DNA from: Chrysophaeum taylorii
Lineage: Eukaryota; Sar; Pelagophyceae; Pelagomonadales; Pelagomonadaceae
DNA: 64,000 nucleotides
Assembly (NCBI GenBank): GCA_029834535.1
Contig: JAQMWT010000037.1
Coordinates: 62,001-126,000 of the forward strand
Reading direction: 5' to 3'
Positions 1,020-44,815 of this stretch are shown piece after piece. The notes below the pieces were generated by a model. That model did no database searches. It was not told the origin of the DNA and was given only the letters and a program-made list of their open reading frames with translations. The position numbers and the translations under genes were made by a program. The first letter of the stretch is position 1; each line of letters begins with the position of its first letter.

Positions 1020-3324
1020 CCGCTGGCCTCCTCGGTCGAGGGGCGCTTCTCGGGAGGCTTAATACTGCGCTATGAAGCGGTCGCAGTAGGATGCCATACA
1101 TCCCAAACTGACCGCCATAACATGTTCCAGGCGAGGCGGGCAAATCTGTTGTTGTGAGAGCATTAACCCCATATCGCGGCACAAGCCACAAGGATGGCAA
1201 GAATCCCCGCCGGCAACCGACAGCGTTCGAAGCTGTATCAATGCCATCGGCAAATGGTAAAGCAGAAGGATCCGTGGACCAAGCACAACAGAAGTCTGAT
1301 GTGCAGAGAGATGCGCAGTCAACCAGTCCCGCAATTCTGTGCTCGCGCAACTTGCGAGTCGCAAGTGCGAAATGATCAAGTTGCAAAGTAGCCGCAAAAG
1401 CCTGTCGCGCCGTCGTCATAGCTGGATGTGGTTGCGTGGTCCAAATGATGGTGAAGACACTAGGGAGAATCAGGGCGGTGACAAAACATCAACACTTGTA
1501 CGAAGTTATGGACGCCAAATCCCCACGCAGCCGAACGCTGCCTAAATTAACCTATCATCCGGCATGGAGCGTACCACAAGAGACATACGGGCGAGCGGGC
1601 GGGCGGCAAAAAGATGTTCGAACTAGCAAAGGCAGAGAGTAGACATCCTCAGTCTCATCATACACACGAAGATGCGCAATCTCGAGCTGCGTGAGCAAAG
1701 TCGAGCAATTATTGTCAAAAAAAACGACGCAATGGAACGCGATAAACCAGCGCCAGCCATGACAAGGACTGTGGAAGCAAGATGCAGCGCTCAGAAGAAG
1801 AATTGCGGCGGCGTTCGAGTGAACCACGCACCCATGCGAGGTCAAAGGAGACAAAATGCGCGCGGAGTCAAGTTCGCAGTCTCATCCGGAACATCGCCGG
1901 GCGTAACGGGCGCGAGCTGCGAGAGGACGAAAGGCGCGTGCGCAGCGCCTCATAGTCAAGGACAGCTTCCACTGGTAACCGAGGCAGAATATCACCAAGG
2001 GACCAAAGCGCAGCCTATGCGGCATAGAATACCATGATTTCAGCACGATATGCGCGAGAGTCTCGGGGCCAGGAATGTGACCTGCGTGCGAAAGTGTAGA
2101 GGCGCCGGGTGACAGGGTCATAAATAGCAACAGCTGCGCCGCCTTGACTCCGAGACATGGTCCCCGTCGCTGGTCACCTAGAGACGACCGGCCATCACAA
2201 CCGCCATTCGCAGATCAAAGTGGGGCCCACGCATCCTGTGACGCAGGGAACCAGCCGGGCGCCGACAGCGTAGCGTGGTAGGAGCCGAGATCCGATATCC
2301 GAGGGAGATTGGGACGCTTCCGGTTCTGGAACGTATGTGTGGCGGCGCACAAGGTAACGAGCAAACGCGTCAAGCATTGCAGCCGGGCTGAGCGGCAAAG
2401 AGAAAGTTCCCTGGTGGAACTCGCCCGACAAATACAGACCCGACAATCGTAATGGTCGTAGCAACCGGGACAAACCACGCCGTAGATCCCAGCCAGCAGA
2501 AACGTCATACGAAGAACGCAAAACGGCCGAAAGGCCTTCTAGACAAAACAGCTCTCTGATCTCCATAGCTAGCACAAAAAACGGACGCCGGCGTGTCTGT
2601 AGCTGCCCGCGTCGCCGCCGATACGATGACTCTCATTCCAGCCCCTTCGATGTTGCCGTCAGCAGCACTTAAAAGCAGCTCAAGGCGGTAAGACTTGTAT
2701 TCCAATTACAGACAAGCGCGCTGTCTGTCACCACCTTGTGCTGCACCTCGTCGTCGTCGTCGTCGACCACGCGGAGTTTGCGTCAACGACGACAAGCCAC
2801 CACGACTACCACTGGGCAATCAACTCGACACATGGGGGTGACAAAGCGAGCAGCATTCACACGAAACAATGCCCACAAGTGCCCGACGAACAACCAAGCG
2901 CGCGGTCCGCTGCCGCCGCCGCCGCCGGAAGAACAAGTAATACACGCGCCATCGTATTTACGCCCGTCCGCCCCGAGAAATGATGTGGACCACCAGACGT
3001 CGTTCTCGTGGCACGCACGCACGCACGCGCAACATGAAAATATCAGGGGCCTCGGCCAGCCGACAGCGAGATGACGACAGGCCGAGCCTGGAAGGGGACC
3101 GTCACCAGCAAAAGCTGGATATCGCCATCGCTCGCCCACATCGGCCCTTCCTTGGGAATGGAGGCAGGCCTTTTGGCGGGATTCAAGGACAGGGGAACTA
3201 ATAATAATAATAATAATAACTGGGGCCAAAGCGCATTTGAGCCCGACGAATGACCGCCATATTCTATGATGATAGATGAGTCGAAACAAAGAAAGAATTT
3301 TTTCAGTGAAGTAAAATGTTCAAT
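1020..3324. other. Intergenic, no supported gene
   Basis: Open frames here are short, lie on both strands and show no recognisable domain. Simple sequence includes a CGT run near 2748-2765, a GCC run near 2911-2930 and an AAT run at about 3199-3220. The AAT run lies just beyond the 3' end of the WD40 gene. Confidence 0.5.
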
Positions 3325-6300
3325 TTAATAGGCGGCGGCGGCGGCGGCGGCGTCTCCGTTGGCGAAGGTCTCGACGCTGTCGAGAGTGGCTCGGTCCCTG
3401 AACATGTCGCGTTCTCTGATTTGCCTGGTGATGTCGAGAGCTCGCTGCCTTCGGACTTGGGCCTCCGCCTTGTTCTGCTCCACAAGCTTGAGAAAAATCT
3501 TACGTTGTTGATCTTGCGTACACCTCTGGAAGACGATGGCGATGAGCTCGCGCATGTTGATGGAGCCGTCGCCGTCGTTGTCGATGTGGATGAAGAGAAG
3601 CTGGGATTCGAGCTGGGAGAGGCGTTGGTTCATGCGGCTCATGAACATGAACCATTCTTCCATGTTGATGGAGCCCGAGAGGTCGACGTCGACGTAGTTG
3701 AACGAATTCCGGAACTCGACGATGTCGTGGGAAGTGTAGTGAGGTCTCGCGAGTTCCTCGAATGTCGCTTCCATGTAGGATGTGCGTCTGGGTGCGGCAC
3801 GGATGTGGGAGCCAACCTTGGCGCGGGCCGACCTCGGCGCCGACGAACCGTCGTTCTCGGGTGATGCCATCGCCTCTCGCATCCTGTCCACGTGGCGCTG
3901 GTAGTCGGCTGTGTCCTTGTTGGAACGGAGAAGCGGCGCGTTGTTGTTGTTACGTCGATTTTTGTCTCGCGACGACGACAGCGGCGCGTCGATGAGTGGC
4001 CTGACTTGGTCTCCGTAGCGCGCTAATTCGACGATCGGACGTTTCTTCTTCGTCGGCGCTCGGGGGGCGTCGTCGTCGTCGTCTTGAGAGTCGTCGTCGG
4101 CGTTGGTGGCGTCAGCGGCAAGCTGTTTGTCGAGGGTATCGAGCATGGGCACAGAATGGCTTGTGCGGACGCGGCTGTAGGCTTGGCGGCGCTCGCTGTA
4201 TTTGGCAATGTCGCGGAGGCGCTCGACGGCCTCGACGTCGTAGAAGCCGAGGCTGAGCCCCTGGTTGATCGATCGTCGCGAGAAGGCTGGCGGGAGGGCG
4301 TGCTTGTTTGCAATCTCGCGTACCAGCTCATCGACGTCCTTGTGTGATGTCGAGTTTCTCGAGGCGGTGGGGGTACCGTCGTCGTCATCGTCGTCGTCGG
4401 CCCGCTTTGTCGTCGCGATCTGATCGAGCAACTTTTTGCGCTTTTGTCGCTCGTCAAGTCGGCGTTGCTTCCGGAGCGTCGCGTAGGGATCGGCGTGAAC
4501 GGCGGTCTTCCGGCTACGGCCGAGGAGACTCTCGCGTCTGCTGGCGCGTGCCTCGACGTTGGCCTTGTCGACCGGCGAGCGCTTCTGCTGCCGTTTTTTC
4601 CACTCGGCTTCGACGTCGGCGGGGTTCGCCTGTACCTCAATCCCGAATGCGTGGATGCCGATGAGTCGGCGCACGGCCCGACGAAACCGCTCCATCCCCC
4701 GCTTTTTTGGAGGCGCGAGCGCGTCTATCATCTTGCGCGCGGAGAGCTCGTATTCGGGACCGACCTCGAGCGGCGTGCCGTGATAATACGTCCAATCGCT
4801 CGGCGGGATCGTCCGCTTATGTTTGGCTACGTGGTTCGGCAGCGGAAACTCGCCGTAGGGCGCGAGGTCGATCCGCCAGATTCGCTGGAACCCGTCAGCC
4901 GCTGTCGTGTATACGCACGGCGGGTCGTCGACGACGGCGACGTGGAGCACCGACTCCTCGTGTGCAAGGCGCTGCCTTTCGGCGACGATGTCAGGGCCTT
5001 TGAACTCCCGCGCCTCCTCGGTCTTGAGGTCGCATCTTGACATGTTGCGGACTATCTTCCGGTAGGGCTTGAACGACAACTGCCGGTACGGGAGTTCGTC
5101 AAGCGCCGGCGGCTGGACGTTCCGGAACTGCGACGCGAGGATCGCCCCGAGCCGCCACGAGACCAAGTGCCCGCTGTCGGTCGCCGCAAACAGCATCACC
5201 GATGGTATGTGGTGAGGGCTCGCCACCTCGACTGCTTTCGTGCGGAGTTTTTGACCGTCGCTCGCTCCGCGGTCGTCGTCCTCGTCGAGCGAGCAGCACG
5301 CGGACGAAGAACGCGTCGGCCGGCGGTGACCGAAGATGACAGCGATCCCCGTGATGGCCGTGCGCGAGGATGCAGAGACGGTAGCACCGGTCGCGTCGAG
5401 GAGGAGTTTTTCCGGTAGCGAGAGCGAGCAGAGCGGCGAGATGGCAACGACAAAACCGCCGTCGTCGTCTTCTTTTTCGTCGCCGCCGCAATTACCTCGG
5501 AGGTGCCAGACGAGGATCCTGCCCGCAGTGTCGGCCGCGAGCAAAATGGGGTAGGGGTCGATGATCTTGCACGCCGTGATGGGCGCATCGCACTGCAGCA
5601 TAGCGTGTTGCTGGAGCGTCTGGAAATCCCAGACGGCGAGCGTGCTGGTGGCGTCGGCCGAGGCGATGATCGACAGTGGTGGCGAGTAGCAAAAACTCCT
5701 GATGCTCGAGGCGTGCGCGTTGGTGACCGTCCGCAGCAAGTTGAGCTCGCCCTTGACGTCTTTCCACACGAGCAGCCGCCGGTCGGCGCCGCACGACACG
5801 ACGCACTTCGCGAGATCGCAAAACGCGAGGCCAGTCACTTCTTCGGGGCAGTGCCCCGAGCTCGCAGCCATGATCGCACCCGTGACGTAGTTGACGGTCA
5901 GAATCTCGCCCAGCTCGGTGCCGACAAAGAGCCGTCGCTGCCGCGGGTGGTCGAGGCACAGCGTCGAGACGTCGCACTTGCGTTGTTGTTGCTGCCGTAG
6001 GGTGAAGCGCTGGACGTGGTGGCCCGTGCGCGAATCCCAGAGGTGGATGTTGTTCGCGACGGCGGCGACGAAGTGGAGGTTGAGCGAGTTGAAGACAACG
6101 GCCGACGGCGGCGCGAACTCGCGCAGAGTTTTAACGGGGACGACGTGGTACATGCGGCTTCGGCCGCTGCCGCCGAAATAGATATCTGAGAAGTCGTCGA
6201 CGGCGTGCTGGCTGTTAAAAGGGAGGACGAGCGTCCGCGTGGGGGGGTCGTTGCAAGGGAGTTTCAAGATTTCGACGCACGAAGCCGACGGTGTCGCGAC

Positions 6301-8388
6301 TTTCCAGACCCTGCATTGGCCTCCGTCGTCGAGCGTAACGACCATCGCCGCGTCGATCGACGGTGCGGCGATAGCGATCGCGCAGATTGCTGTCGCGTGA
6401 CCCTCGAGCCGCGCAATGCAGTCGCGCGACGTCACGTCCCACACCATCACGTCGTTGTCGAAGCCTCCAGAGACGATGGCACACTGCGCGTACGCCAGGC
6501 ATCGCACGCCCAGTCTGTGGCCGACGAGGGTGCCGCGATGACGCAGGTTCTCGATACCCCAGAGCTGGATCTTCTTGTCGAGTCCGCATGTCGCGAGGAG
6601 CCCCTTGTCCTTGATGAAGATGCAATCCATCACGATGTCAGCGTGCGGCGAGAACGGTTCGCTCGCCGACTTTTGTCCGGGCCCGGGCTCGGGGCGCCAC
6701 GAATACAACTTGGAGTAGCTGTCGAGCGAGAAGAGCCTCTCCGCTGTCGAGCTCCATACGAGCTTGCGGTGGAGCGAATGCGTGACGATAACGCCGGCGT
6801 TCTTGTAGGCTCGATGCTTGCCCGAAGATGACAGCTGCTCCGCGAGCAGGTGGATAGCGTGGTCTGATAGTGCCGCGGCGAGAAGGTCGCGTTCGGCGAT
6901 GTATATCAGGTCGTGAATGACTTTTGGCGTCGTCGTCGTCGCTGCCGTCGCCATCGGCGGTACAGCGCCCTCGCGGTGGGACTGTTTCTTCCTCTTCGTC
7001 GTCGTCGTCGTCGTCGCGGCGGACACCTTCGGGCGGCGGTCGTCGTCGTTTGCGTCTATCGTCACGAAGAGAGCGTCGCCGCCGATGGCCTTGGCCTCGA
7101 CTTGTTGTTGACGACGCCTCGCCGCCGACTCGTCCAAAGCAAGAAAGTTGTGCGAGTGCTGCAATCGGCCGAGTCTGTCGTACGCCTTGAAGAGCGGCGA
7201 GTCCTCTTCCACGACGAGGATTCTCCCGAGTTCCTCGACGTAGTGCATGACGACGATCGGTTTCGCACTTTCGCCGTCGTCGTGTTGTTGCGGGAGCGGT
7301 TGGTAGGTGATGATGAACTCGTCGGGCGACGACAGCGCCTCGTGGCTGCCGCCGATCCTCGCCTCGGTCGCGGCCCGCATTCCCGCGCTTATGGTGTGAT
7401 TCGTGAACTCGTCCCAATCGACTCTTTCGTCGCCGTTGATATCGATCTGATTGAAAAGCTCGTGCAAAAGTGCGATCAACATCGCAGCCTCGGCGTGCTG
7501 CTCGATCAGCACGGGGTGCTGCGACGCGAGCTGTTTGAACAAGATCTCGACAAAGCTCTCGACGTCCAAACCCTCCTTGGTCTTGAACTGCGGTTTGAGT
7601 GTCGGTAGCGACCGGGACGACAGCGCCGCGCATACCTCCGGCACCGACTCGAACAACCTCCGCCGGTCCTTTTTGAGCCACGGAAACAGCGCGTTCAGAC
7701 TCTGCTGCGTCTCTCTCGTCACCTCCGCGCGCGTCCGCGCGAGCGCCTGCGACATGACGCCCTCGACGTCCCAAACGTTGAGTGGGGCTGTCGAGTGCTT
7801 CGTCGCGACCCTCGAGAGAGAAAACAGGACCACGAAGTTGGCTTGCTTGGCAATCGTGTGCGCATTAACGTCGCGCGATCTACGTTTCTCGCGCAAAACT
7901 GTCCAGAAGAGCGGCGCGACGGCGACGAGCGTCCTCGCGAACCACGGTGTTTTGAGCGAGTCGGTCAATGCCGACTCAACAAAACTGAGATGCTTGACCG
8001 ATACCTCGAGCCTCGACAGTTTGACGTCTTCGAACGTCCTCGAGAATATGGCGGCCGCCACCGCGACCGCGTGCACGCGGTAGTGCAATCGCCGCGTGTC
8101 GATGTACACCTGCTCCGACTTCCCGGCGGCGTCCACCGACAGCGCGTCGCCGCCATGGCACACGGCATGGTCGTTCGACACAGAGTTGTTGAAGTCGACG
8201 ATCTCCAGCACGCGCCCCTGGCTGTCGAGCAGGAGGCAAGATATGTCCACGTCGCATGCCGTCTTTCCCCGCGAATCCCACGTCACCTCCGTCAGAATGT
8301 CGTTCTGCGCGTTGCTCAGCCGCTCTCGCCCCCCAACCTCCAACCGCCGCGCCATTTTTTTTGCCTTCAACGACGACCCATACTTCAC
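3325..8388 (-). CDS. TerD-like / EF-hand / WD40 / EF-hand protein (CFAP337/WDR49-like)
   Basis: A 1687-aa uninterrupted ORF. Residues ~30-130 resemble a TerD fold: VTWDSRGK, then an Asp-rich strand (CDVDISCLLL), then SNDHAVCHGGDAL. An EF-hand follows near residue 320 with loop DINGDERVDWDE. WD40 repeats run from about 490 to 1130, for example VWDVTSRDCIARLEGH and LAVWDFQTLQQH. After a charged, disordered stretch, two canonical EF-hand loops lie near 1590-1650 (DVDLSGSINMEE and DNDGDGSINMRE). The C-terminus is a poly-Ala run. EF-hand plus WD40 is the pattern of axonemal CFAP337/WDR49/EFCAB8-type proteins, so a flagellar calcium-responsive scaffold role is likely (inference). The TerD-like N-terminus is not usual for that family. 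The opposite strand carries long shadow frames caused by codon bias. Confidence 0.85.
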   Translation of the reverse strand: MKYGSSLKAKKMARRLEVGGRERLSNAQNDILTEVTWDSRGKTACDVDISCLLLDSQGRVLEIVDFNNSVSNDHAVCHGGDALSVDAAGKSEQVYIDTRRLHYRVHAVAVAAAIFSRTFEDVKLSRLEVSVKHLSFVESALTDSLKTPWFARTLVAVAPLFWTVLREKRRSRDVNAHTIAKQANFVVLFSLSRVATKHSTAPLNVWDVEGVMSQALARTRAEVTRETQQSLNALFPWLKKDRRRLFESVPEVCAALSSRSLPTLKPQFKTKEGLDVESFVEILFKQLASQHPVLIEQHAEAAMLIALLHELFNQIDINGDERVDWDEFTNHTISAGMRAATEARIGGSHEALSSPDEFIITYQPLPQQHDDGESAKPIVVMHYVEELGRILVVEEDSPLFKAYDRLGRLQHSHNFLALDESAARRRQQQVEAKAIGGDALFVTIDANDDDRRPKVSAATTTTTTKRKKQSHREGAVPPMATAATTTTPKVIHDLIYIAERDLLAAALSDHAIHLLAEQLSSSGKHRAYKNAGVIVTHSLHRKLVWSSTAERLFSLDSYSKLYSWRPEPGPGQKSASEPFSPHADIVMDCIFIKDKGLLATCGLDKKIQLWGIENLRHRGTLVGHRLGVRCLAYAQCAIVSGGFDNDVMVWDVTSRDCIARLEGHATAICAIAIAAPSIDAAMVVTLDDGGQCRVWKVATPSASCVEILKLPCNDPPTRTLVLPFNSQHAVDDFSDIYFGGSGRSRMYHVVPVKTLREFAPPSAVVFNSLNLHFVAAVANNIHLWDSRTGHHVQRFTLRQQQQRKCDVSTLCLDHPRQRRLFVGTELGEILTVNYVTGAIMAASSGHCPEEVTGLAFCDLAKCVVSCGADRRLLVWKDVKGELNLLRTVTNAHASSIRSFCYSPPLSIIASADATSTLAVWDFQTLQQHAMLQCDAPITACKIIDPYPILLAADTAGRILVWHLRGNCGGDEKEDDDGGFVVAISPLCSLSLPEKLLLDATGATVSASSRTAITGIAVIFGHRRPTRSSSACCSLDEDDDRGASDGQKLRTKAVEVASPHHIPSVMLFAATDSGHLVSWRLGAILASQFRNVQPPALDELPYRQLSFKPYRKIVRNMSRCDLKTEEAREFKGPDIVAERQRLAHEESVLHVAVVDDPPCVYTTAADGFQRIWRIDLAPYGEFPLPNHVAKHKRTIPPSDWTYYHGTPLEVGPEYELSARKMIDALAPPKKRGMERFRRAVRRLIGIHAFGIEVQANPADVEAEWKKRQQKRSPVDKANVEARASRRESLLGRSRKTAVHADPYATLRKQRRLDERQKRKKLLDQIATTKRADDDDDDDGTPTASRNSTSHKDVDELVREIANKHALPPAFSRRSINQGLSLGFYDVEAVERLRDIAKYSERRQAYSRVRTSHSVPMLDTLDKQLAADATNADDDSQDDDDDAPRAPTKKKRPIVELARYGDQVRPLIDAPLSSSRDKNRRNNNNAPLLRSNKDTADYQRHVDRMREAMASPENDGSSAPRSARAKVGSHIRAAPRRTSYMEATFEELARPHYTSHDIVEFRNSFNYVDVDLSGSINMEEWFMFMSRMNQRLSQLESQLLFIHIDNDGDGSINMRELIAIVFQRCTQDQQRKIFLKLVEQNKAEAQVRRQRALDITRQIRERDMFRDRATLDSVETFANGDAAAAAAAY

Positions 8389-8777
8389 TTCAGACTAAAG
8401 AAAGATATTCGGATACCCTACTACTTACTTACTACTCGAGCGATTTCGGTCTGTTGATTTTTTTTGCCGTCGTCGGGGGGGGGGCGTGGTCGCGGTGAAT
8501 TTCATGCTACTACGATCCTCCTCCTAGTGCTACTCCAATCATCCAATGGAGTCGCGCGTCGGAAGACGCACGGCCGGTTTCCGGGGGCCTTGTTGATAAG
8601 CAAGTCCCTGCGCTAGTGAGATAATTTTTTTGCTCGAGCCCCTGGGGGGGATAATAATATAATCGCCAGTTGGTGTGCGATCGCCAACCATATGGTTGCG
8701 ATGGAGGACGGCGCCTAACGCGTTTGCTCCCTGCGGCCGGCGGCCCCCGCCGTCCCGGAGTGAGACGGTGCCTGCTC

Positions 8778-9095
8778 GTCTCCCGAGCTGGCCGGTTAGC
8801 ACCCGGAAAGTCCGCGCTGGGATGGGGTTCGTTCGGTCGGGCAGCAAAAACGCGACGGACAGGTCGGTTGTTCGTGGACCAACACGTTCACTAGACCGGC
8901 GACGCTTTTGCACGGCCTCGCACAAGACCGCGCGCAGTGGCGGTCCGCCATCAACAACTCCTCGTCCCTCGTCTCTGCCCCAACTGCGTGATTTTCCTCT
9001 GTGATTCCGGATCGGCTCCTGCCGGTCCGGCCTGGCTCCCATGCTCTGGCTCCCATGCCTCGGGAGAGGTCTAAAGTTAGTTTGTTAGTTGGCGT
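8778..9095 (+). repeat. Inverted repeat, left arm
   Basis: Matches the reverse complement of 10577-10890. The match starts near ctcccgagctggccggttag on the outside and ends near gttagttggcg on the inside, next to the 41-bp tandem duplication. It carries no convincing coding sequence. Confidence 0.7.
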
Positions 9096-9169
9096 GCGCA
9101 AAAAAACCTAATCACCACCCCGAGGGGCGTTGGCGTGCGCAAAAAAACCTAATCACCACCCCGAGGGGC
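9088..9169. repeat. Perfect 41-bp tandem duplication
   Basis: Positions 9088-9128 and 9129-9169 are identical. Each unit starts gttggcgtgcgcaaaaaaac and ends ccaccccgaggggc. The lack of divergence points to a recent duplication at the inner edge of the left inverted-repeat arm. Confidence 0.9.
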
Positions 9170-9383
9170 AACGACAACTGGCACACGAGCCCGCAACAGG
9201 CGCGTTCTCCGCCGAAAAGCTTCGGTGAAGCAAAACTGTTCGTGGCCTTTCGTGCTTGTGTTACGCTCGCTCGTCGAGGCACGTACAACGTGTTTCGCAC
9301 AGCAAAACTTCGTAGCCCTAGCGCCATCGAAGACAAGATGTAATAACAACAATAAAAATCTCTGCTGTGGCTGCAGGGATACG

Positions 9384-9623
9384 TCAGCCGTTGCCCGCAG
9401 CCGACACTCGGGGTATGTCGTTGTGTTCCGTCAACGACGCCAGTTTTTCGTTCAGTTCTTCCACTCTTTCGCGGTGGGTCTTCAATGTCTTCACGGCGCG
9501 CTTTCTGCTCTTGTGTCGTTTCTCGGCCTCGGTTTCCTCCGACCCCGCCGAGGCGACGACGACGGCTTTCCGCTTTACCTTGAGCTTGAGCTTCGACGCC
9601 GACACGGAAGCGTACTCCTTCAT
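9384..9623 (-). CDS. Small basic coiled-coil ORF, bZIP-like in character
   Basis: A 79-aa frame inside the inverted-repeat segment. It has a Lys-rich start, a basic stretch EKRHKSRKRAVK, then a heptad-like tail (VEELNEKLASLTEHN). Basic region followed by heptads is the layout of a bZIP factor, but the protein is too short and lacks the conserved Asn of the basic region. Further coiled-coil-like pieces occur on the same strand at 9732-9956 and 10013-10100, so this may be one exon or a remnant of a larger gene. It may equally be untranslated. Confidence 0.25.
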   Translation of the reverse strand: MKEYASVSASKLKLKVKRKAVVVASAGSEETEAEKRHKSRKRAVKTLKTHRERVEELNEKLASLTEHNDIPRVSAAGNG

Positions 9624-10576
9624 CCACTCTTATTAACAATTACCCCGGATCAGGAGCTCACCAGGTTACTGGCGGTGACTAACGTACCGGACATCACTGA
9701 AACATACATTAGTAATACCGTACAGAAGTAATCACGAGGCTACAAATTGCTTGACCTCCGCCAAGAACCACGCCTCTGGGCCGCTGAGGCGCGGGCCTCG
9801 GCGTCCCAGGCGCGCACCTCCGCCTCCGCGGGCCTCGGCATCCCGGACGCGCACCTCTGACAAAATCTCGACTCGGCGTCGAGCTCCATCAGCAGCTCGA
9901 CACAGCGCCTCGAGCTCGCACTCCTGCTTCTTTATCGTGCTGGCGTTGAAGGTCACGAGCTCTCGATGCCGGCGTACTTCGACTAGAAGATCGTCGACCT
10001 GGTGGTAGGCGGCTAGCTCTGCTGGAGCTTGGTCTTAAGGTCCTCTTTCTCGTACTCGAGGTGCCTGACGCGCGCTCTCAGCCTAGCGAGAACTCCGTTG
10101 AGTGATCCTAGGCTTCGAGCTTGGGCTTCGCCATGATGGCCTCGGGTCGCCGGTGCGGGGCTGGCGACGGCGTGTCGTCGTACTCCTCGTCCGACTTTGG
10201 CAGTGCTTTGCTCGGCGTCGACTGAGCCCGCCTCTTGTTCGTACGCGACATTGGGTCTCGGTGGAGGCCAGGGCCGTGGCGAAGTCGGGGGCCGCGGCGG
10301 GGACTGGGGCCTCCAAAGCACGCGGCTTGGGTTATAGCCGCCGGCGCCAGCGCCGTACTCCGAGAGGATGGCCCACGTCGTTGTATTCGGCGAGTCAGAG
10401 GCCGGACGGGCGGGCTTTGGTCCCGCGGCTTCCGCCTGCGACGCACTGGCAATGAATACGGCGGGGGGGGGGGCGCCCGTGAATTTCGCCGGGTTACTGC
10501 AGTACGACCAGTGCCTCCGGCCAGCCGCATCTTTGTGATGGTGCCTTCGAAGAGTCGGACCAAGATCTCTAGTGAG

Positions 10577-13592: not shown

Positions 13593-16500
13593 GTGCCTTC
13601 ACGGAAGAGGACTCCTCGGAGGCCCGAACGAAAAACTCCGGTCAAAATCGACCGATTTCCCCCTCAAAAAACCTGCGGACCCCGGTTGGGTTTATGGTCG
13701 GACATATATGCTTGTATTCTCGGCTTTGACTTGTGGAAAGACGAGCAGGTGTGGAATCTTTGGAATATGGAAAGGTCGTGCGTGGAGAGAGCACGCCCAG
13801 CGTGGTATCGTAAGTGGAGCGAGGCGCCGTCGTTGCTCGCTCAGGCCTCGGCGACGGTGTCCCAGTTGCGCGGCGAGACGAGCATCGTCTGGCTCGGCTC
13901 GGACAACCGCGAAGAAGTGTGTATGAGCTTCGGCACGATGTGGGAACGGACGACAACCGTGATGCGGTATCTCACCGAACAAGGGGTCGCGACCAAAGGG
14001 GACCGTGTACTCCTGTGCATGAGCCCAGGTCCGACTTTTTTCTGGGTGATGCTTGCTTGCCTGCGCGGCGGCATCGTCGCCGTGCCCGTCTACCCGCCTA
14101 ACCCGAGCCGCCACATGCAGCGCGGTCTCGACAAGCTGCAGCTTCTCCGCGAGAACTGTCAGGCGAATGCGTGCTGCTGCGACAAAGACGTCGATAGGCT
14201 TCGACGCACGACCAGCGTTCTCTACGACTGGCCGTCGGGCCTCGCGTGGGTGAATTGCGAGGGCATGACCGAGGTCTCGTCGGGTTCAGTCGTGAGCGCG
14301 CTAGGCCGTGCCATCAGCGCCGACCACGGCTTCGAGGAGGTGGCAGCATCGAAGCAACTGGAGACGAATGTCGATGAAGACCACATCGCATTTCTCCAGT
14401 ACACTAGCGGATCGACCGGCGAGCCCAAGGGCGTCATGCTTTCGCACCGCAACCTCTGGCACAACGTGAACGAGTTGTACATACCGACCTTGGAACGAGG
14501 CGCCGCCTTGGACGATCGCACAACCGAAGTCAGTGTTGAGTCAACCGCCCGTTAATGATGTATCCATCCATGATTTAGCGTCGAGGTAACGATTTCAGGT
14601 TTCTTTTCCTCATTTCAAGTTTCGCGGCGTTCCACAAAGGCTGATCGGCTGCAGCTGGCTACCCCAATATCACGACACCGGCTTGGTCCAGAGAGCAGGG
14701 TCTTTCTTTTCTCAACCCATGAAGAAGAACTAACGTACTGCGGTGCTCGGCGTAGGTCCTCATGTTCCTCGGGCCGTTCGTCGGGGGCTGGAAGATGATC
14801 CACACGTCGCCGTTGATATTCCTGGCCGATCCACTCGGGTGGCTCAAAACGATGTCGACGTACAAGGTCCACTGGTCGGCGTCGCCTGACTTTGGATTCG
14901 ATCTGTGCGTCCGACGCCTTTCGCGATCTCCGGCGGACTTTCTCGAGAGTATCGACCTCTCGAGCATCTTGCGCCTCGGGGCCGGCGTAGGACAAAGGTG
15001 CCGGCCCGACCAACTCCGGACGTTCTACGATACGGTTGCGGCGGCCGCGGGTATCTACGCGCCGTTCGAGCGCTTCTTCATGCCCGCGTACGGCCTCGCC
15101 GAGCACGTCGTCGGCACTTCGTTCGAACTCGACGGAATCGTCAGCTCGAAAACGATCCCGTCGCTCGTCTCGAGCGGGTCACAGTTTCTCTGCGACATCA
15201 GCATCGTCGACCCGGAGACGCGGACTGTTGTCACCGGCGACGCGATGACCGGCGAGCTCTGGATATCGGGTTCGGATTCGGAAGCTCGAGGTTATTGGGG
15301 CAAGCCCGAGCTCTCCGAGGAGACGTTTCGAGCTCGCGCGCAAAACGAGGACGACGACCGGTCTTATCTTCGCACCGGGGACTTGGCCTTCGTCGAAGAT
15401 GGTCACCTGTTTATCTGCGGTCGACTCAAAGATCTCATCATCGTTGGTGGCTGCAACTACTATCCGGAAGACTGCGAGATCGCCGCCGACAAAGCGACTG
15501 CCGGCGTCGGGCGACCCGGGTGCATCGCAGCGTTCGCGATAGAGAATCTTGAAGACAACGGCGAGGAGACCCTCGCCCTCGTCTTTGAGGTTTACGAGCA
15601 CACCGAACTTGAAGCGGCCGATGCTGCGCAGCGTGCCGCGAGTGCCGTTTTCCGGGACGTGGGTCTCAATCCGGCTCGCGTCGTAGCAATCAAAGAGAAG
15701 TCGATTCCAAAGACGACGAGTGGCAAGATTCGTCGGCGCGCGACGCGCGACGCGCTCAGAGAAGGCACCCTCTCGATTGTCTTCGACACGGCGGCCAAGC
15801 TCGCGGACGCGTCGCCTCGTTCAAACGAGACGAGGCCGATCTTAGAGAGAATGTTCTCTTGGCTCAGCGCCGCATCCCCAGCGCCTGATGGGGATACGGA
15901 GTCGCTCGTCTCGATCGTCACGCCAAAAAAAAAACCCTCACCATACTCGAAGGCGACGGCATTCACTTTTCAAGAGACTACCCCCGAGCTGCTGCGACCG
16001 TCGGTTAACCAAAGTTTGAACAACAAAACGGGGAGGTCCTGGACGTCCCTCAAGAGTGTCCGAGAAACAGTCCTTGCTGCGTGCAACGACGACGACGACG
16101 ACGACGAAAAAAAATCGACGACGAGGGTCCTCCCCAGCCCGCTCTCGACCCTCGAGGACATCGCCGCCGCTTCTTCAAGCTCTGGCGGTGGTGGTCAGGT
16201 TGTTAGGGAGACGCTTGACGCCGTACGACACAAGCTGCTCGCGTCGCCCACTCTCGAGTGGACGGCAGACGAGCTCGCGCGCAGTATCGAGGTCGCTTTC
16301 GTTGAAGTCACTCTCGTGTTCGAGACGCGGCGACGCGCAGTCGCTCGGGAAATCAACAGCAAGACCTGCGTATTCGACGTTGGACTATCGTCGATGGAAC
16401 TCGTCGGCCTCCGAGACACCGTGACGGTGGCGCTCGATGTCGACGTCAAGTTGGAGCTCTTGTTGCGAGCGACGTTTCCAATCTCTTCTCTCGCCGAGGA

Positions 16501-19500
16501 GATCGTCGCGACCGTCGAGGCCATCTCCGACGAGGCAAGGGCAGAAGCTCGCGTCGCTTCCGGGGTGTTCGGCGGCACTTGCCCCGCAGAAGGCGCTGCA
16601 GCACTCGAAGCTTACTCCGAGCTCGCTGACCTGGGCGACGATCGGGTGTTTCCGTACGCGTTGTCTCGCTTCGAGCGCGCGACGACGTGCCAGGTCATCG
16701 CGTTCTGTTTATGGCTGCCGTGTGGCATCATGCTCGCAGCGGTGCGGCTGTGTGCTTTCGCAGCGCTCGTCGCGTCCACGTCGCCGGTCAGCTGCCTTCG
16801 GCACCTGCACTTCATCATCGGCCTCCGGTTGACCGCGTTGGATGCTGGTGCCTCGAAGTCGTCGACGAACAAAAGAACGGGCTCCGGCGATGTTGAGGAC
16901 GATGACGAAGATGACGAACTGACGACGACCAGTTGTAATCTCCCAGTCTCCGACGATGAGCCAACTCTGGTCCTCGTAAATCACCACGTGACACCCGACT
17001 TGTTTTTTGTAGTCCACGCGCTCTTACGACGCGCGAAAGCGCCACTGGTTCCGGTGGTTCTGGCGCACGACAAGCTCGCTTCGTTTTATCGGATTTCGGG
17101 GCTGGGAGGAATGGTTGAGCTGGCAAGCGGGACAACTGTCCTTGAGCGGGTTGAGGCGTGGAAGGAACACGACGAGGCGCGCCGACGCCCAATGGTGCTC
17201 GCGCCGCACGGACAGACGCTTCGGGCGCCGTTCATCTCGCCGCCAATGAAGTATTGGCTCACGCAGGACGTCCGCACGGTCGTCGCGTCGACGATACTGG
17301 CGAACAACCCCTTCAACATGGAACTTCGCGTCGTGGGTGGGAGCTTGCTCCTCGACTTCCTTTTATTCCTGGCCATGCCAACGCATCGCGCGACAATCCA
17401 CTTCGACCTCGTGCGTCGCGGGGAGCGCCAGCTACAAGCGGAAGAAGAAGACGGAAAGGCGTCGCCCAGTTGGCTGCGGGCCTGGGGCAACGTTGTCACA
17501 TCGCGCGGGCTCACAGTCACACCCTGGTCCCCCCAACTCAAGTCTCGAGTTGTCAGCGGGGACTCGTCGCCGCGCGAACTCAACGATGATCACTTCGAGA
17601 CCATATTGGGCCACGCGGCTGCGAGGAACAATCAAATGCGAGCACTAGTCGTCGTTGTCGAGAGAGTCCTACGGCACCCAGGAAACACGAGTGTCATCAA
17701 TCGTAAGCTTGACACGTTGCTCACGTCGTACGCTGCGCGCTTCGACCTCGTCGTCGTCCAAAACGGCAAGGTCGGAATAGATGTCGTCGATTATTTTTTC
17801 GCCAAGTTGGTTCCGACGGTGTCGGTGACGCTGTCGCCATACGCGTCGCTCGCGGAGACCGTCGAGGGATACTCCCCTGACGTCGTTTTCGTTGCGTCTC
17901 TCGAGGAACTTCCGCGAGGTCTGCTCGCGACGCGCCGCGCGGCCGTCGTCGTGGTGAACCCCTCTGACGCGGACCGCAACACCGCCGAAGCATTTGGCCT
18001 CTCAGTGTTGCGGGCGCCCGAGGGTGTTGCGTCCTGGTGGCGAAGCTTGAATCAGTTCGAGGCCAACATAATCGCGAGGATCCAACGTTGGATGTTGCGG
18101 TCGTGCGTTACGCAGATCTTTGTCTCCTGGGTTCATTGGATATTTGCGGAGGAACAGGTGATCGTCCTCGGCTGCGTGCTCGCCGCGGCGCGTCAGAGTC
18201 CCGACCTTGTTATCTCCGTGGGTCGCGCCTACACCATCACGCACGCGTGGGCGTGCTACGTACCTAAACTCTTCTTTGCGAGGCCCCGGCCATTCTGGTT
18301 AGAGAATAATCACGTCAAGTTTGCGTGCTCGTGGGATCTCTCCGTGCACGACAACAGCTTCCCGTCCGGCCATGCGGCCTTCGTCGCGACAATTGCTGCG
18401 ACCTGCTGGAATTTTGGTGCTGTGCGAATCACGAGCCTCGTTACCACTTGTCTCGCGGTCGTCGCGGCTTTCGCGCGCGTCGCTGCCGGAGTCCACTATC
18501 CGTCCGACGTTGTTGTTGGCGCTACGGGCGCCGTGGTGCTCAACTATCTCGTGTTCTGGCCACTCGGTCTCTTGGAAAGATCCCGAGGCCCTAAGGGTTT
18601 TATGGTGCGCGACGAGGAGCTCGTGAACCGCCAGCTCGGCGCGACAGCGGCGGTGACTGCTGTCAACGCTATTGGGATCCTCTTCGCATTTTTGTTTGCG
18701 AAGGTACCCCCGATGACAGATCGCATCGCCTGGACGAGGACGCATTCATCAGAGTCTCCAAATCGATGGACTTATTAGACGCCGGCGGTTTTTTTTAAGA
18801 GGTTTCGTTTCTCTCGCCGTAGGTATCAAAAGCACGTCGACGCGGCTGGCGTCAATCGAAGCGTCCAACTCATTGACTCGCACAAAAAAATTGAAAGTGC
18901 CGTGACTGCCCTCTTCGCCGCATCGATCACCGTGTTTTGGACGACTGCCTTGACTCGTGAGATATATGTTGCGAACAGGTGGCTACCGTACGACCGTGAG
19001 TCGCGCGTCGGAGGGAGGAAGAAGAAGCATTTCTTCTTATGAATCGCCACGTTATAGGCGAGCCGAAGCACGCAGCGGCTGCCATCCTTATTTCGATCGC
19101 GAGCGTCGTGCTCTTCCTCTTAACCCGTGGGTATGCGCGTCGCACCAAAGCGAAAAACAACCGCGGATGCTTTTTTGTCATCCAAACCGTGCTCATCGCG
19201 GTGCTCTTGTTCTTCAATTTGGTTGTCGTGGACGTCATCATCTTCAAGCTCTTCGAAAACGAAAAGATGAAATGCATCAGCGGTTTCAGAGGGTCGGATT
19301 TTAGATTCGAGAACTTTGACTCGTATCCGACTTACTTTCGCGAAGACAGTACGCTGACGCTCGCGCAAGCTGGAACGTACCAAGGGCCAGAGGATATCGA
19401 AGAATACATGCGGTAAGGAGGATAGTGCCTCCTGGGTGGTCATGATATTTCTTGTCGCAGGTACGCGTCGCACTTTTCGCCGTTTTTTTCCTTTGCGGCT

Positions 19501-20109
19501 CTGGTTAAGGAGTCGATCACGTTCAAGTCATTCGACGTCGACGCCGGTATCTGCCAGTTCGTCACCGTCCAAACGTCCGATTACATCACGAATCCGAATG
19601 TCGCTCTTGCAACGCGAGTGAACGCAACAAGCTTGGCAAAGATATACTACGACTCATACGACGATTACTTTCCGCGCGTCGACGTATACTATTCTCGAGG
19701 TCTCGTTAATTTCCTCTTCGAGGAGACCTTGAATACGCAGCAAACGAGGGAGTTTATCTGCGGCGTCATGGCGGACAACTGCACATTCACTACTCGAAGC
19801 ATGGCCGAATGCGTCGCTGACTTGGACGCACTCCCAACGTTCTCGAGTAACTACAGCCACGTTGACGGCAACAGCGAAGCCTGCCGCGACCTGCACGGAG
19901 TCTTCGCGCGCGACGACCCGGAAAATCATTGTCCGCATATTTCCTTCGAGCCAATGGTTGACCCCAAGGGCCGGATCAAGTGCCAGAACTCGTCGAACAT
20001 GCTCCCCTCGGACCTATTCGATGACTTCGACATCGACTTCTACGAGAACTTCTGCGAGGACAACGGTGTCGACCCGGACCAAGGCTACGTGGTCGATGCC
20101 GCCTGGTGA
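13593..20109 (+). CDS. Multidomain lipid-assembly protein: FAAL - carrier - HX4D acyltransferase - PAP2 - membrane/luminal tail
   Basis: Six exons can be joined in one frame: 13593-14528, 14599-14685, 14756-18753, 18823-18995, 19058-19412 and 19461-20109. The introns are 70, 70, 69, 62 and 48 bp, all GT..AG, and the product is ~2065 aa. Start 13593 is the first ATG; 13767 is an alternative that still keeps the whole ligase. Fatty-acyl-AMP ligase, residues ~60-670: P-loop LQYTSGSTGEPKGVML, SWLPQYHDTGL, GRLKDLIIVGG and the C-terminal Lys motif PKTTSGKIRRR. Carrier protein: FDVGLSSMEL, Ser ~887. Membrane segments follow at ~985-1040. The acyltransferase has NHHVTPDL (HX4D, ~1082) and APHGQTLRAPF (~1157), GPAT-like. 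PAP2 phosphatase has KLFFARPRP, FPSGH and ARVAAGVHYPSD (~1512-1587). The tail has more membrane helices and a domain with several N-glycosylation sites, perhaps SnoaL/NTF2-like. Inferred role: activate a fatty acid, hold it on the carrier, acylate a lipid phosphate and dephosphorylate the product at a membrane. Confidence 0.8.
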
Positions 20110-30534: not shown

Positions 30535-33500
30535 TCACCAGGCGAGGTAGAATTCGAAGACGCGGCGGGTGCGCGCGGAGGCGGCCGAGACGGGCATCGC
30601 GTCGAGGTTGTGACGCCAGGCCCTGAGGGTCCTGGCGTAGTCGAGTCCGGTCGCTTCGGAATAGACGCAGCGAAGACCCGCGGAGCGGAATTCGTCGTAA
30701 ACGTGCTCGAGGTAGGGAAGCTGCTGGTCGGGGAAGATGTAGGTCTGGACGAAGGTGGACGGCGGGCGGTGCGCTTTCTGTCGGATGGAGGGGTTGCGCG
30801 AGGCGTAGCCGTGGATAATCTGAAAGACGGCGCGGCCTCGAGGTTTGAGGTGATCAGCGACGGAGTGCGCGAAGGAGCGGTACTGATCGAAATGGAGGGC
30901 TTCGATGGCCTCGACGCAGGTGACGATGTCGAAGCGGCCGAGGTCGGTAGGGGGGACCAGCATGTCGCCGAGGACGACGGTCGCGTCGAGACCCTGGAGC
31001 CTGTCCATCGCGCCCGCCTGCATTAGCGTCGAGTTCGTGAGACCGACCGCGCGCAGGCCGCGAAGTGCCGCCTCGCGGACGAGTTCTCCGTAGCCGCACC
31101 CGAGGTCGAGGAGGCGCTTGCCGGGAGCGCCGGCGCCGAGTTCTATAACGCGGAGGACCTTGCGGTGCTGAGCTCGGTCGAGATCTCCGTCCTCGTCGCC
31201 CCGCGACCACCAGTCTTCGGTCCCTTCCGGCTCGGGCTTGGTCGAAGTGGTGGTCGTCGTCGTCTTGCGCCAGAGGGCCGAGGTGTAGACCATGGTGTTG
31301 CCGAGCATGTGCTTGAAGAGGTCTTCGTCGCGGTCGTAGTGAGCCGAAATGGACGCCTTGCGACCCTCGACGGTGTCGAACGAGAAGGTGGCCTCGACCG
31401 CGCGGGTGCAGAGCCTGCCGACGAGGGAGGTCGCGTCGGTGAGGTCGCCGTAGGCGCGGGCGGTGGCGCGGAGGACGCGGGCGAGGTCGTCGGTTGTTCG
31501 GGTCGTCCAGGCCTCCTCGACGTAGCCCTCGCCCAATCCGACGTCGCCGCGGGCGAGGACGAGGGACGTAGCGCGCCGAGGGTACTTGACGTCGACGCGT
31601 CGCGCGAGGCCGCGGCGGCCGAGGAAGTCCTCGACGAGGCGGCACGCATACCGCGGGAGGACGCGGTCCCAGCATTTGCGCCAGAGCGAGGCGAACCAGT
31701 ACGCGTTGGTCGCGATCGCGAGGAGGATCGTAAAAGGCGTGAGCCAGACGGCGAACGCGGGGACGGATCCGGAGTTGGACGCTCGGAGGTAGGCGGGGAA
31801 GCGCCAGTACGTCGCGAAGGCAAAGCCGAAGGAGAGAAGCAAGACCCTCGAAAGGCCAAAGGTGAGGACGAAGGCAAGGAAAACGGGGACGTTCGCGGGA
31901 TATAGAGAATGGAGGTATAAGAAAACGGTCGAAAATTCGCCGGAAACGAGGTAGACGAAATCGTGGGAATATATTTTAAATCTCGCGTTGACGAAGGAGG
32001 CGAGCCAGAATATGACGTGGTGGGCGAAGATGAGGGGAGTGTACTGGAGAAAGGGTCTTTCGGCCGGGCCTAACACTACGGCGCCGAAGACGACGTCGTG
32101 CGCGACGTAGCCTCGAAACGCGTCGTTCGCGATCGCGACGCTCTGGTCGTCAAAGGGAACGCGCGCCGTTTTGTGGAAGATCTTTGAGGCATGGAAGACC
32201 GCAAACAAGGTCATCGCGATGGCGTGGACGAGGCCCAACACGGTCATGGCGCGCTTGTGGGCGTCGAGGTCGCGATCGTGGCGGTATCCGACGCGCCGCG
32301 GCGCGGCGACGGCGGCGACGTGCTCGGACCGCGCGACGACGGCGAGGCGCGCGGCGAGCCAAAATAAGGTCCAGCCCGCGAGGAGTCTGGTGTTGACGAG
32401 GTAGGGCGTCAACAGCAGCATCGCGTCGGCGGCTATTCGGGTGGATCTCGACAGGGGCGACGCGCCGAGCGCGAGGTGAGCGCCGAGCTGGACGAGAGCG
32501 GTTCTGGGTTTGGGGGATGCTTTGAGAGCTGCGCCGAAGAGTCCCTGGGAAATCAAGAGGATATCGATGCGCCACTCGCGCGAGACGGTCGCGAGGGTCG
32601 CGAGGGCCCAGAGCGCGACGAGCCGGAGCTGGTGGACCGAGGGCCGGGCCGCGCAGACCGCGAGCGTCGCGAACAACGTCGCTCGGCAGACGCGGGCCGT
32701 CACGCCGCCGCCGGCGGCGGCGGTGGCGGCGGAAGGGGTGTAGGAAAAGAAAGGTCGGCGGCGCGTCGCGACGACGCGGTAGAACATGCGCGCGTAGACC
32801 TCCGCGAAGGCTATCGGAGAGCCCAACTTGTGAAGCAACCACCACCTCTCGTCCGCGGCGAGTTTCATCGTCGTGGCGAAAATAACGACGCGACGGCGCT
32901 TCCTTTGCTCCTGGACGAGTCTCACGGTGAGGGTCTTGGAGGAGGCCTCTCCGACTTGGAATTCGTAAAAAAACTTGTTGTTATCATCCTCGTCTTCGCC
33001 TTCGTTGTTGGGAGGAGCGTGGGCGGGCGAGACGTGCATTTTTTTGGGAGCGCGGTGGGCCGTCCCGAGCCAACCGTAGACGACGGCTTCGCCGTAGGGC
33101 GTGTTGTGGACTTCCACGAGGTGGCCAATAACCTTGGCGCCGTCGAGCTCGTCGTACACGAGGCACCAGGTCAGGGGGTTAAACGCCGCGAGCCACGAGA
33201 AGGCGCGCGGCGCGGCCACGACGTCGACGCGCCCGACGGGATAGACCCCGGTTTCCCTCAAAAAGGTGTCGCGAACGTCCGCGTTCCGGATGGGCTCGCG
33301 GGTCGAGGGGGACCCCCGACACAGGCCCGGGTGGTCGGCGGGCACGACGCCGCGCGGCGCGTGGGATGCCTCGAACCGAACCATCGCGAACCTCGAACGA
33401 AACGCGACGTTGTCCGAATCGACGTGCGAGAGCTCGGCCGTCACGGGCGTCGGCGGCAGCGGAGTCCGCGCGTCGGGCCGCGCGGCCCGGATCGAGGGAT

Positions 33501-42503: not shown

Positions 42504-44099
42504 TCATTGTCGTCGTGGAGTGCGGACGGGTTTTCCGTTCGCGTCCTTCCAGGGGCCGTAGAAGCCGCCGTAGAGGTCACGCGCGGCGGTGAGGCATGCG
42601 GGGTCGTCGGAGTGGTCGACAGTGAAAATGGCTTCGACTTGGACCGCGAGCTCGGCGCGCAGGTCGTCGACAAGGTCGGCGTTGTCGTCGACCACGTCGT
42701 GCTCCTCGAAAGGATCGTCGACCACGTTAAACAAGCAGCCGCGCGCGCCGCAGACGCGCGAGTACGTCGAGATAGGATCGTCGAAGGACGTCATGTTCGG
42801 GTAGACGGGTCCGCCGCGGGCGTCGTCGACGAGCGTCGTGTTGGGCGCTATATACTTCCAAGGACCTCGGACGTAGGCGTCTCGGTCGACCAGAAACGAC
42901 GCGCGCGCTTCTGTCGCGTCGCCGATAATGAGCGGCCAGGCGTTGACAGAATCGATCGGCGGATACACGTTGTCGACGGGCGAGACGCCGGCGAGGGCGC
43001 AAAAGGTCGCGTACCAGTCGGCGACGTGAACGATGGCGTCGAGCTTGGAGCCTCGAGCCGAGAGAGGCAAAAATCCCCCCGACGCGAAGGCGACCGTCCG
43101 GATGCCGCCTTCCCAGGCGCTGTTCTTGCCGCCACGCAACGGGTAATTCGAGGCCCCAAACTCGCCGTTGACGCACGCGGTCCCGTGCCCGACTTCGCCC
43201 GATCCTCGCCGCGTCGTGTTGCACGGACCGTCCGCCGCCTCGACGAAGCCGCCGTTGTCTGCGCTAAACACCACGAGCGTAGAATTCCAGACGGGCTCGA
43301 GCGCCCCGACGATCGCCGCCAGCTGGTCGTCGAGAAACCGGACCATGCCGTGGTACACGCGCGTGTTGTCGGGCACGACGCCGGGCTCGCGTTGATACTC
43401 CTCGGGCGCTTGGAGCGGATAATGCGCGAGCTTCGAGTCGTACTGGAGGAACAATGGCTTGGTGGCCTTGGCGATAACTGACAACATGCGATCGCGAAAC
43501 AGATACTCCTCGTGCTTCGACCCGTTCAGCTCAAACGCCGGACGGTCCGTGTCCCAGAGATCGGTGATGGACGAGCTCGACAAGTCGGGCAACGACGTCG
43601 AGTTCGTCTCCGATCCACCCCACTCCTTCTGCGTCCAGGCCCAATTCCCATGCCCAAAGTACGACAGCGACGTGTCGTACCCGCGCCCATGCGGCGTGTG
43701 CTTCGGGGTCACTAGTCCCGCGTCCCATTTTCCCACTTGGTGCGTCTCGTATCCCGCAAACTTGAGCTTCTCGGCGACGCCGGTCATGTTGTACGGGATA
43801 GCCCCGTTCCGGTCGCACGGGCCCGGCAGTGCCAACAACAGGTGCACCGGCAGCCGCCCGCTCTGGAGGCTCGCGCGGCTCGGCGTGCAGTAGTAATGCG
43901 CGTAGTGCCTATTTAGCTCCACGCCTTCAGCCACAAGCCGGTCCATCGTCGGCGTCGCGACCGTCGAGTTGTGAAAGCCGACGTCACCCCACCCGAGATC
44001 GTCGGCGAGGATCATCACGATGTTGGGTGGCGCCGGCGGCTTCTTCGGGGTCTGGGCTGCCACAGCCGCCCAACCAACAAACAACCACACCACCTCCAT
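42504..44099 (-). CDS. Secreted sulfatase (type I, formylglycine-dependent)
   Basis: 531 aa with a signal peptide (MEVVWLFVGWAAVAA, cleavage near QT). Metal-site Asp pair: IVMILADDLGWGDVGFHN. The modification site CTPSRASLQSGR supplies the Cys that becomes formylglycine. Later motifs are HQVGKWDAGL (the usual GKWH with Asp for His), DSKLAHYPLQAP (Lys and His kept) and VFSADNGGFVE. Family members remove sulfate esters from glycans or aryl substrates. The aspartate at the GKWH position is unusual and could tune specificity. Many N-x-S/T sites fit a secreted protein. It is the first of two sulfatases in the window. Confidence 0.9.
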   Translation of the reverse strand: MEVVWLFVGWAAVAAQTPKKPPAPPNIVMILADDLGWGDVGFHNSTVATPTMDRLVAEGVELNRHYAHYYCTPSRASLQSGRLPVHLLLALPGPCDRNGAIPYNMTGVAEKLKFAGYETHQVGKWDAGLVTPKHTPHGRGYDTSLSYFGHGNWAWTQKEWGGSETNSTSLPDLSSSSITDLWDTDRPAFELNGSKHEEYLFRDRMLSVIAKATKPLFLQYDSKLAHYPLQAPEEYQREPGVVPDNTRVYHGMVRFLDDQLAAIVGALEPVWNSTLVVFSADNGGFVEAADGPCNTTRRGSGEVGHGTACVNGEFGASNYPLRGGKNSAWEGGIRTVAFASGGFLPLSARGSKLDAIVHVADWYATFCALAGVSPVDNVYPPIDSVNAWPLIIGDATEARASFLVDRDAYVRGPWKYIAPNTTLVDDARGGPVYPNMTSFDDPISTYSRVCGARGCLFNVVDDPFEEHDVVDDNADLVDDLRAELAVQVEAIFTVDHSDDPACLTAARDLYGGFYGPWKDANGKPVRTPRRQ

Positions 44100-44815
44100 T
44101 TCTCTTGCCTTAATATTTATTTATTTATTTTGAGAAAAAAACCCTACGATCCGTTGGGCCCCGAGAGAGAGAGACGAGACGACAATCAACAAACACTCCC
44201 TCGTGTCGGCGCCCCCCAAGATTCTGCCTCTCCCCGGGTAAAGAAAATGGACAATGTAGCGTTCGTTCGGGGCCGGGAATTTTTTAGTGGCAGGTCCGCG
44301 ACCTCCGCGGTTCTTCAGGAACGACCGACGAATGTGCCCCCAACTTCCCGTACGCCTCGCGCATGGTGGGAATCACACATTACATCCTCGTATCTATCTC
44401 TAACCCCCCCCCCCCCACACCCAACAGCAAGTTCTTTTTTTTCTCTCTAACCGCCGATGATTCTCTCGGAGCTCGTCCCGCGCTGGTGACTGGGGCCTGT
44501 TTTTCTTCCAAGTGCGCGTGCGGCAGGCGATCATCTCTCCAGGCACACTAACTAGCCTACGGAGTAGTAATGGCGGGCTGAATACGTACAGGAAGCCGCG
44601 CTACAATCTCCCACTCCCTCCCTCTCATGGAGAGAGAGGTAAGGGATCGTCGTCGTCGTCACCAACGGATACCTACTACATAGAAACGGAAACCCTAGTT
44701 GTTGAAAAAACAACACGGAACCCGAATTTCGAGAGAACCACGAGCTCTGGGTAAGACTTATTATTAGGCGAGAGGTGCGGGAGAAAGAAGGTTCGGTTCG
44801 GTTCGGTTCGGTTCG
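44100..44815. other. Intergenic / promoter region of the CobW-ankyrin gene
   Basis: No gene is seen. A (GGTTC)n pentamer run at 44790-44815 ends exactly at the start codon of the next gene, so it probably forms its 5' UTR. A C-rich run lies at 44405-44418. Confidence 0.6.

Follow-up and report, generated by a model that had tools for sequence, protein, structure and literature searches.

A predicted membrane protein of Chrysophaeum taylorii joining a fatty acyl-AMP ligase and a carrier protein to acyltransferase-related and PAP2 domains

Gene structure at the locus

A gene predicted to encode a membrane-spanning chain of roughly 2000 residues was found on the forward strand of a 64,000-nucleotide stretch of the genome of Chrysophaeum taylorii, a pelagophyte alga that NCBI classifies among the stramenopiles (positions 62001–126000 of contig JAQMWT010000037.1, here C37; the whole stretch is referred to below as the window). 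The gene (13767–20109), whose exon joins were read from the sequence, codes in order for a fatty acyl-AMP ligase (FAAL), a putative carrier protein, a domain remotely related to PlsC-type acyltransferases, a conserved alpha/beta domain, a PAP2 phosphatase domain, and a cysteine-rich end domain (Table 1). An earlier note on this DNA had proposed the order FAAL, carrier, acyltransferase and PAP2, and domain searches combined with motifs located all four parts in that order and place; the alpha/beta and end domains were absent from its domain list. The note had begun the gene at 13593, whereas we placed the best start codon at 13767 (Met).

The central part of the gene is an uninterrupted open frame of 1340 codons (14756–18778, forward strand) that encodes the C-terminal half of the FAAL, the carrier protein, the acyltransferase and PAP2. 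At the local base composition, the probability of such a frame is about 10^-20, and this value together with the protein-level constraint between copies (see below) rules out a chance open frame. Two exons upstream of this frame supply the missing N-terminal part of the FAAL. The donor at the 3' end of exon 1 (GTCAGT) was assigned by reading the sequence, and the counterpart of exon 2 in the paralogous locus L009 runs continuously into the sequence of the next exon. Further downstream, exon 3 can be joined to exon 4 through a GC donor at 18742 or an alternative GT donor at 18754, while exons 4 to 6 are joined in frame, with GT-AG ends at both the 4/5 and 5/6 junctions.

Table 1. Predicted features of the gene, in window coordinates
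Feature	Position	Strand	Evidence and remarks
Exon 1: start Met and N-terminal half of FAAL (YPP, YTSGSTGEPKG)	13767..14528	+	Pfam AMP-binding, 2.6e-28
Exon 2: LIGCSWLPQYHDTGL of FAAL	14620..14685	+	GT donor at 14686; matches paralogue L009
Exon 3, C-terminal half of FAAL: GRLKDL (15419), KTTSGK (15710)	14756..15790	+	
Carrier protein; attachment Ser in GLSSMEL at 16391–16393	16256..16630	+	PP-binding match of the paralogue
Hydrophobic segment ahead of the acyltransferase	16679..16798	+	Hydropathy; 210-base GT-AG intron here in C320
Acyltransferase core: HX4D (NHHVTPD, 16979), APHGQTLR (17201)	16952..17455	+	PF01553 in the paralogue; hhalign
Conserved alpha/beta domain	17633..18100	+	About 130–155 residues, 45% identity to paralogue; weak GT4-like match
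PAP2 phosphatase domain: KX6RP (18266), PSGH (18362), HYPSD (18494)	18236..18556	+	Pfam, 1.9e-17
End of exon 3: one hydrophobic helix	18557..18741	+	
Exon 4 (C1): one hydrophobic helix	18823..18995	+	Matched in C320, C44 and the two C418 copies
Exon 5 (C2): two hydrophobic helices and start of end domain	19058..19412	+	Continuous with C1 in C320
Exon 6 (C3): Cys-rich end domain, four N-x-S/T sites	19461..20109	+	62–65% identity to three short paralogues

Domains of the predicted protein

The assignment of the first domain to FAAL-type adenylate-forming enzymes is very well supported by sequence comparison. In addition to the N-terminal match listed in Table 1, the C-terminal part matches the Pfam AMP-binding family at 2.3e-9, and the motifs YTSGSTG, YGLAE, RTGD and the lysine of PKTTSGK, which have catalytic meaning in this class of enzymes, are all present. 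The N-terminal half does not discriminate between the two candidate families (AMP ligase, 52 bits; CoA ligase, 66 bits), so that the distinction comes from the C-terminal half. The latter scored 175 bits against the NCBIfam fatty-acid--AMP ligase model, whose cut-off of 775 bits applies to the whole protein; among the models named after CoA ligases, PRK07768 scored 156 bits and the other CoA ligase or acyl-CoA synthetase models listed reached at most 61 bits. In the PDB, it matched 7r7f (160 bits) and 3kxw (145 bits), deposited as a polyketide synthase and a saframycin synthetase, and the FadD23 AMP ligase 8hd4 (110 bits). We take 7r7f and 3kxw to be FAALs, and the chains deposited as 'Acyl-CoA synthase' (87–96 bits) to be presumably FAALs of the FadD23/FadD32 type; the first other acyl-CoA ligase scored 42 bits. 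By these scores, the C-terminal half lies nearer to the FAALs than to the acyl-CoA ligases.

The domain that follows the FAAL is predicted to be a phosphopantetheine carrier protein, an identity that is well supported because of its FAAL neighbour and the conserved GLSS context of the attachment serine (GLSSMEL and GLSSIDL in the two intact fused copies, the second being the C320 paralogue described below). The C320 carrier matched the Pfam PP-binding family PF00550 with an E-value of 5.7e-4 and 20.5 bits, just under the cut-off of 20.8. A profile built from the two carrier sequences gave four weak matches in the PDB (E 0.84–1.4), namely an aminoacyl carrier protein, 83 residues of a peptide-polyketide synthetase, a hypothetical protein that is presumably also a carrier, and one unrelated protein. 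Four loci of the genome match the phosphopantetheinyl-transferase family PF01648.

The acyltransferase is more distant from described families. The C320 paralogue matched PF01553 with E-values of 0.011–0.012 (16.0 and 15.9 bits), not reaching the cut-off of 23. A profile-to-profile comparison (hhalign) against nine PlsC-type proteins from this genome gave a score of 34.6 (P 0.00056), which was reached by none of 100 column shuffles (maximum 21.5) and compares with 13.7 for the reversed profile; the alignment pairs NHHVTPD, which holds His743 and Asp748 of the open frame, with the NHxxxxD motif and APHG with the PEGT motif of these nine proteins. The profile was drawn from twelve PlsC loci, of which L044 (the frame looks wrong), L045 (P 0.26 alone) and L048 (no frame) were left out, and seven other groupings of PlsC-type proteins gave weak results (P 0.67, 0.079, 0.0098, 0.26, 0.11, 0.26 and 0.013). 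Read by eye, motif III has its glutamate in nine out of the genome's ten readable PlsC-type proteins; only a plastid GPAT-type protein, which matches 1iuq at 5e-56, differs, with APSGGRDR at this place. Taken together, these comparisons support a remote PlsC-type relative with a real departure at motif III. The hydrophobic segment followed by the core is an arrangement that we take to resemble plant GPATs. In searches extended to an E-value of 5, acyltransferase matches in the genome were confined to three fused loci (on C37, C320 and C366), each with PAP2 downstream. No relatives were confirmed in prokaryote genomes or viral contigs among the 587, 21, 11 and 16 stretches that matched two short peptides per scan, and a profile search of the PDB with the acyltransferase gave three matches, all of them in an acidic low-complexity linker.

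Between the acyltransferase and PAP2 lies the alpha/beta domain. Its match to the glycosyltransferase-4 family PF13579 varied with the segment submitted (E 0.0018 for 17600–18100, 0.028 for 17633–18070 and 0.29 for the whole frame), and this family did not match the corresponding domain of the paralogue. A low-confidence single-sequence structure model (pLDDT 48) shows alternating strands and helices, while a profile search of the PDB gave a best E-value of 0.3 and no consistent family.

The PAP2 domain is certain at the family level (63.7 bits against a Pfam cut-off of 27.2), and its phosphatase activity is predicted. The motifs KX6RP, PSGH and RX5HX3D are kept in the window and C320 copies, with alanine replacing the serine of the third motif. 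The PAP2 superfamily also includes halogenases, as stated in the available part of the C. taylorii genome paper (PMC10366177). Four hydrophobic helices come after PAP2, the first ending exon 3 and three in the later exons.

Across the genome, the cysteine-rich end domain was matched seven times, in six loci, and neither Pfam (searched with the window copy and one paralogue) nor the PDB gave a match to it. The domain is probably lumenal, because it contains four N-x-S/T sites and a basic loop precedes the last helix. By the same crude count, a lumenal end domain would place the PAP2 active site in the cytosol, on the same side as the FAAL and carrier protein. Ordinary lipid phosphate phosphatases face the opposite way from the cytosol. 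One of the loci sharing the end domain (L058 on contig C533, 3798–5672, forward strand; 36% identity) is a 625-codon frame in which hydrophobic segments follow; by eye, this frame looks like an NTF2-like fold with a signal peptide, and Pfam gave no credible match.

Fused and shortened copies in the genome

The genome-wide searches covered 70.8 Mb in 697 contigs. A search with the 1340 residues of the open frame gave at least 39 matches, 35 out of 111 candidates being scored; these include loci on C320 and C366, numerous matches of the FAAL type and three short PAP2 loci (one on C44 and two on C418). The C320 locus is a complete fused paralogue with the same order of parts and 46–55% identity, depending on the piece and method. 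At its boundary between the carrier protein and the acyltransferase there is a 210-base GT-AG intron, the removal of which leaves a stop-free frame that aligns without gaps to the window across the junction. The end domain was absent from the approximately 3.8 kb examined downstream of the C320 copy. The C366 locus is a decayed third copy with frame breaks, which retains the same order from the C-terminal half of the FAAL onward.

Between the window and C320, the nonsynonymous proportion of differences (pN, 0.15–0.53) is lower than the synonymous one (pS, 0.47–0.72) in all eight segments, the extremes being PAP2 (0.15 vs 0.67) and the linker (0.53 vs 0.72); the pN/pS ratios are rough, since synonymous change is near saturation.

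In all three short PAP2 loci, a piece resembling the N-terminus of the FAAL is immediately followed by the last part of the alpha/beta domain and then by PAP2. The alignment scores of the FAAL remnant (63, 76 and 76) were each reached by none of 1000 shuffles. The three loci are close relatives, so the remnant probably reflects one event. Because a FAAL remnant is joined to the PAP2 part, the short loci look like products of an internal deletion in a fused ancestor, and their structure would be hard to explain if the FAAL and PAP2 were separate genes. The possibility that the PAP2 part was a free-standing gene joined by accident was rejected on the same ground, the short PAP2 genes appearing to be deletion derivatives. 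The three short copies (L011, L013 and L014) all have PSGS in place of PSGH, while the window and C320 copies have lost none of the three PAP2 motifs. Within 5050–9061 of L011, the short PAP2 gene and a distinct FAAL gene are arranged head to head.

Other fusions in the genome and the window

Other sequences suggest that C. taylorii repeatedly joins FAAL-carrier pairs to further enzymes. Two frames, L051 (3874–7491, forward strand) and L054 (1089–4433, reverse strand), carry a Pls/PosA-type end after the FAAL and carrier, with matches to TIGR02353 of 6.9e-33 and 8.6e-14, both under the cut-off; L050 resembles them by eye. In L055, a FAAL-carrier pair is joined to a ketosynthase. In L052, positions 1555–9999 (forward strand) of a frame 4042 codons long encode an acyl-CoA dehydrogenase along with four AMP-binding domains of the FAAL type.

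Several other multidomain frames are present in the window. On the reverse strand, amine oxidase, DUF1365 and cyclopropane-fatty-acid synthase domains share one frame (30535–34863), sulfatase and sulfotransferase domains share another (55906–58866), a second sulfatase is located at 42504–44117, and a frame of 1688 residues (3325–8391) combines a TerD domain with WD40 repeats and EF hands. On the forward strand, a CobW GTPase has ankyrin repeats at its C-terminus (44768–46303).

Comparison with known systems

We did not find the order FAAL, carrier, acyltransferase and PAP2 described, and no description of a FAAL and PAP2 in one chain was found in the open-access literature searched, most subscription papers lying outside the search. 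PMC5006271, the sole paper in which the terms 'PAP2' and 'fatty acyl-AMP ligase' occur together, was set aside, as PAP2 is part of a culture name in its available text. In the available part of the C. taylorii genome paper, PAP2-superfamily genes are mentioned only as possible halogenases, and the gene at 13767–20109 is not mentioned (PMC10366177).

Fusions of a FAAL with an acyltransferase are already known. Bacterial FAAL-like domains are fused with lysophospholipid acyltransferases (PMC8460268), and, as in the protein described here, a FAAL is thereby joined to a member of the same broad superfamily outside polyketide and peptide synthases. As far as the available description in that paper goes, PAP2 and the end domain are not named there, whereas the C. 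taylorii protein is eukaryotic and predicted to span the membrane. Plant GPAT4/6/8 enzymes combine acyltransferase and phosphatase activities in one chain to yield 2-monoacylglycerol (PMC4112632, available part), but they use acyl-CoA as a donor. The DIP2 proteins, composed of a DMAP1-binding domain and two FAAL-like domains, likewise tie eukaryotic FAAL-like domains to diacylglycerol metabolism; in contrast to the present case, a carrier, acyltransferase or PAP2 is not described for them in the accessible portion of PMC9342972.

Within the same genome, L051 and L054 are similar in joining a FAAL and carrier to a membrane transferase-type end, but this end belongs to another family (TIGR02353) and shows no PAP2 match. 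The phosphatase part of plant GPAT4/6/8 lies at the N-terminus and is of the HAD type rather than PAP2, and these enzymes are not known to contain a FAAL or a carrier protein. The E. coli Aas protein (acyl-acyl carrier protein synthetase/2-acylglycerophosphoethanolamine acyltransferase) presumably also takes a free fatty acid through an acyl-carrier to a lysolipid in one chain and without acyl-CoA; as we understand it, however, Aas has the opposite domain order, a separate carrier protein and no phosphatase.

Proposed function and alternative explanations

In FAAL-carrier pairs, a fatty acid is converted to acyl-AMP and then to an acyl-carrier (PMC11837247, available part). By analogy, the FAAL described here would turn a free fatty acid into acyl-AMP and load the attached carrier protein. 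The PlsC-related domain may then move the acyl group to a glycerol acceptor at the membrane that probably carries a phosphate, and PAP2 could dephosphorylate this lipid or one next to it to give monoacylglycerol or diacylglycerol without acyl-CoA. The alpha/beta and end domains might bind or position the acceptor or product, which is a guess. A PAP2 site facing the cytosol, as the crude count above suggests, would suit such an assembly line.

Judged from sequence, the best explanation of the domain set is that one membrane chain carries out fatty-acid activation, tethering, acyl transfer and dephosphorylation, to which we give about even chances. A more specific version, a self-contained CoA-independent glycerolipid assembly line with a phosphorylated glycerol acceptor and a neutral lipid product, possibly destined for export or a surface lipid via the lumenal end, is offered tentatively. 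Several observations weigh against these proposals. Motif III reads APHG instead of PEGT in both intact fused copies, and therefore the usual binding of a phosphate-bearing acceptor may be lost. Neither the acyltransferase of the window copy in Pfam nor its carrier protein against PF00550, up to an E-value of 10, gave a match. A single-sequence structure model of 16673–18145 contained no usable fold (pLDDT 38), and hydropathy alone does not place the PAP2 active site on the membrane face of the carrier. The scheme of the earlier note is thus retained in part: a single chain with a FAAL, carrier, acyltransferase-related domain and PAP2 stands, whereas its chemistry, phosphatidate synthesis followed by diacylglycerol formation, goes further than the sequence shows, given the missing motif III glutamate and two domains that lie outside that scheme.

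The departure of motif III from PlsC would also suit a maker of specialised metabolites or surface lipids instead of diacylglycerol, in which the acceptor is not glycerol-based or is otherwise specialised (e.g., a secondary metabolite or lipid carrier) and PAP2 has as its substrate a lipid diphosphate or a lipid phosphate of another kind. The Pls/PosA-type and ketosynthase (L055) fusions of other FAAL-carrier pairs fit this alternative, as does the best score of the C320 PAP2, obtained with an undecaprenyl-diphosphatase model (44.2 bits, far under the cut-off of 250). We nevertheless consider it rather unlikely, as the acyltransferase aligns to PlsC proteins from HX4D through motif III and the plastid GPAT-type protein also lacks the glutamate, so that its loss alone leaves a glycerol-phosphate acceptor possible. 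The altered motif III and an end domain with no assigned role could also be expected of a regulator or sensor of lipid levels with some catalytically weak domains, comparable to DIP2, whose FAAL-like proteins control diacylglycerol pools (PMC9342972, available part); this seems quite improbable, since neither intact fused copy has lost the FAAL motifs, the carrier serine, HX4D or the PAP2 motifs. Finally, two adjacent genes, one for the FAAL and carrier and the other for the acyltransferase and PAP2, might have been read together by mistake. The position of the C320 intron at the boundary between these halves is in line with such a misreading, but the uninterrupted window frame, the gap-free C320 junction, the presence of both ends in one frame in the short copies, and the same order in the decayed C366 copy make it very improbable. 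These observations likewise favour the single chain proposed earlier over the separate genes that had been named as its refutation.

Eukaryotic glycerolipid synthesis is generally described as depending on acyl-CoA, or on acyl-carrier protein in plastids. If the proposed assembly line is correct, FAAL-driven, carrier-tethered transfer within one membrane chain would represent a separate route of fatty-acid entry into lipids, and eukaryotic FAALs would have a role beyond polyketide synthases.

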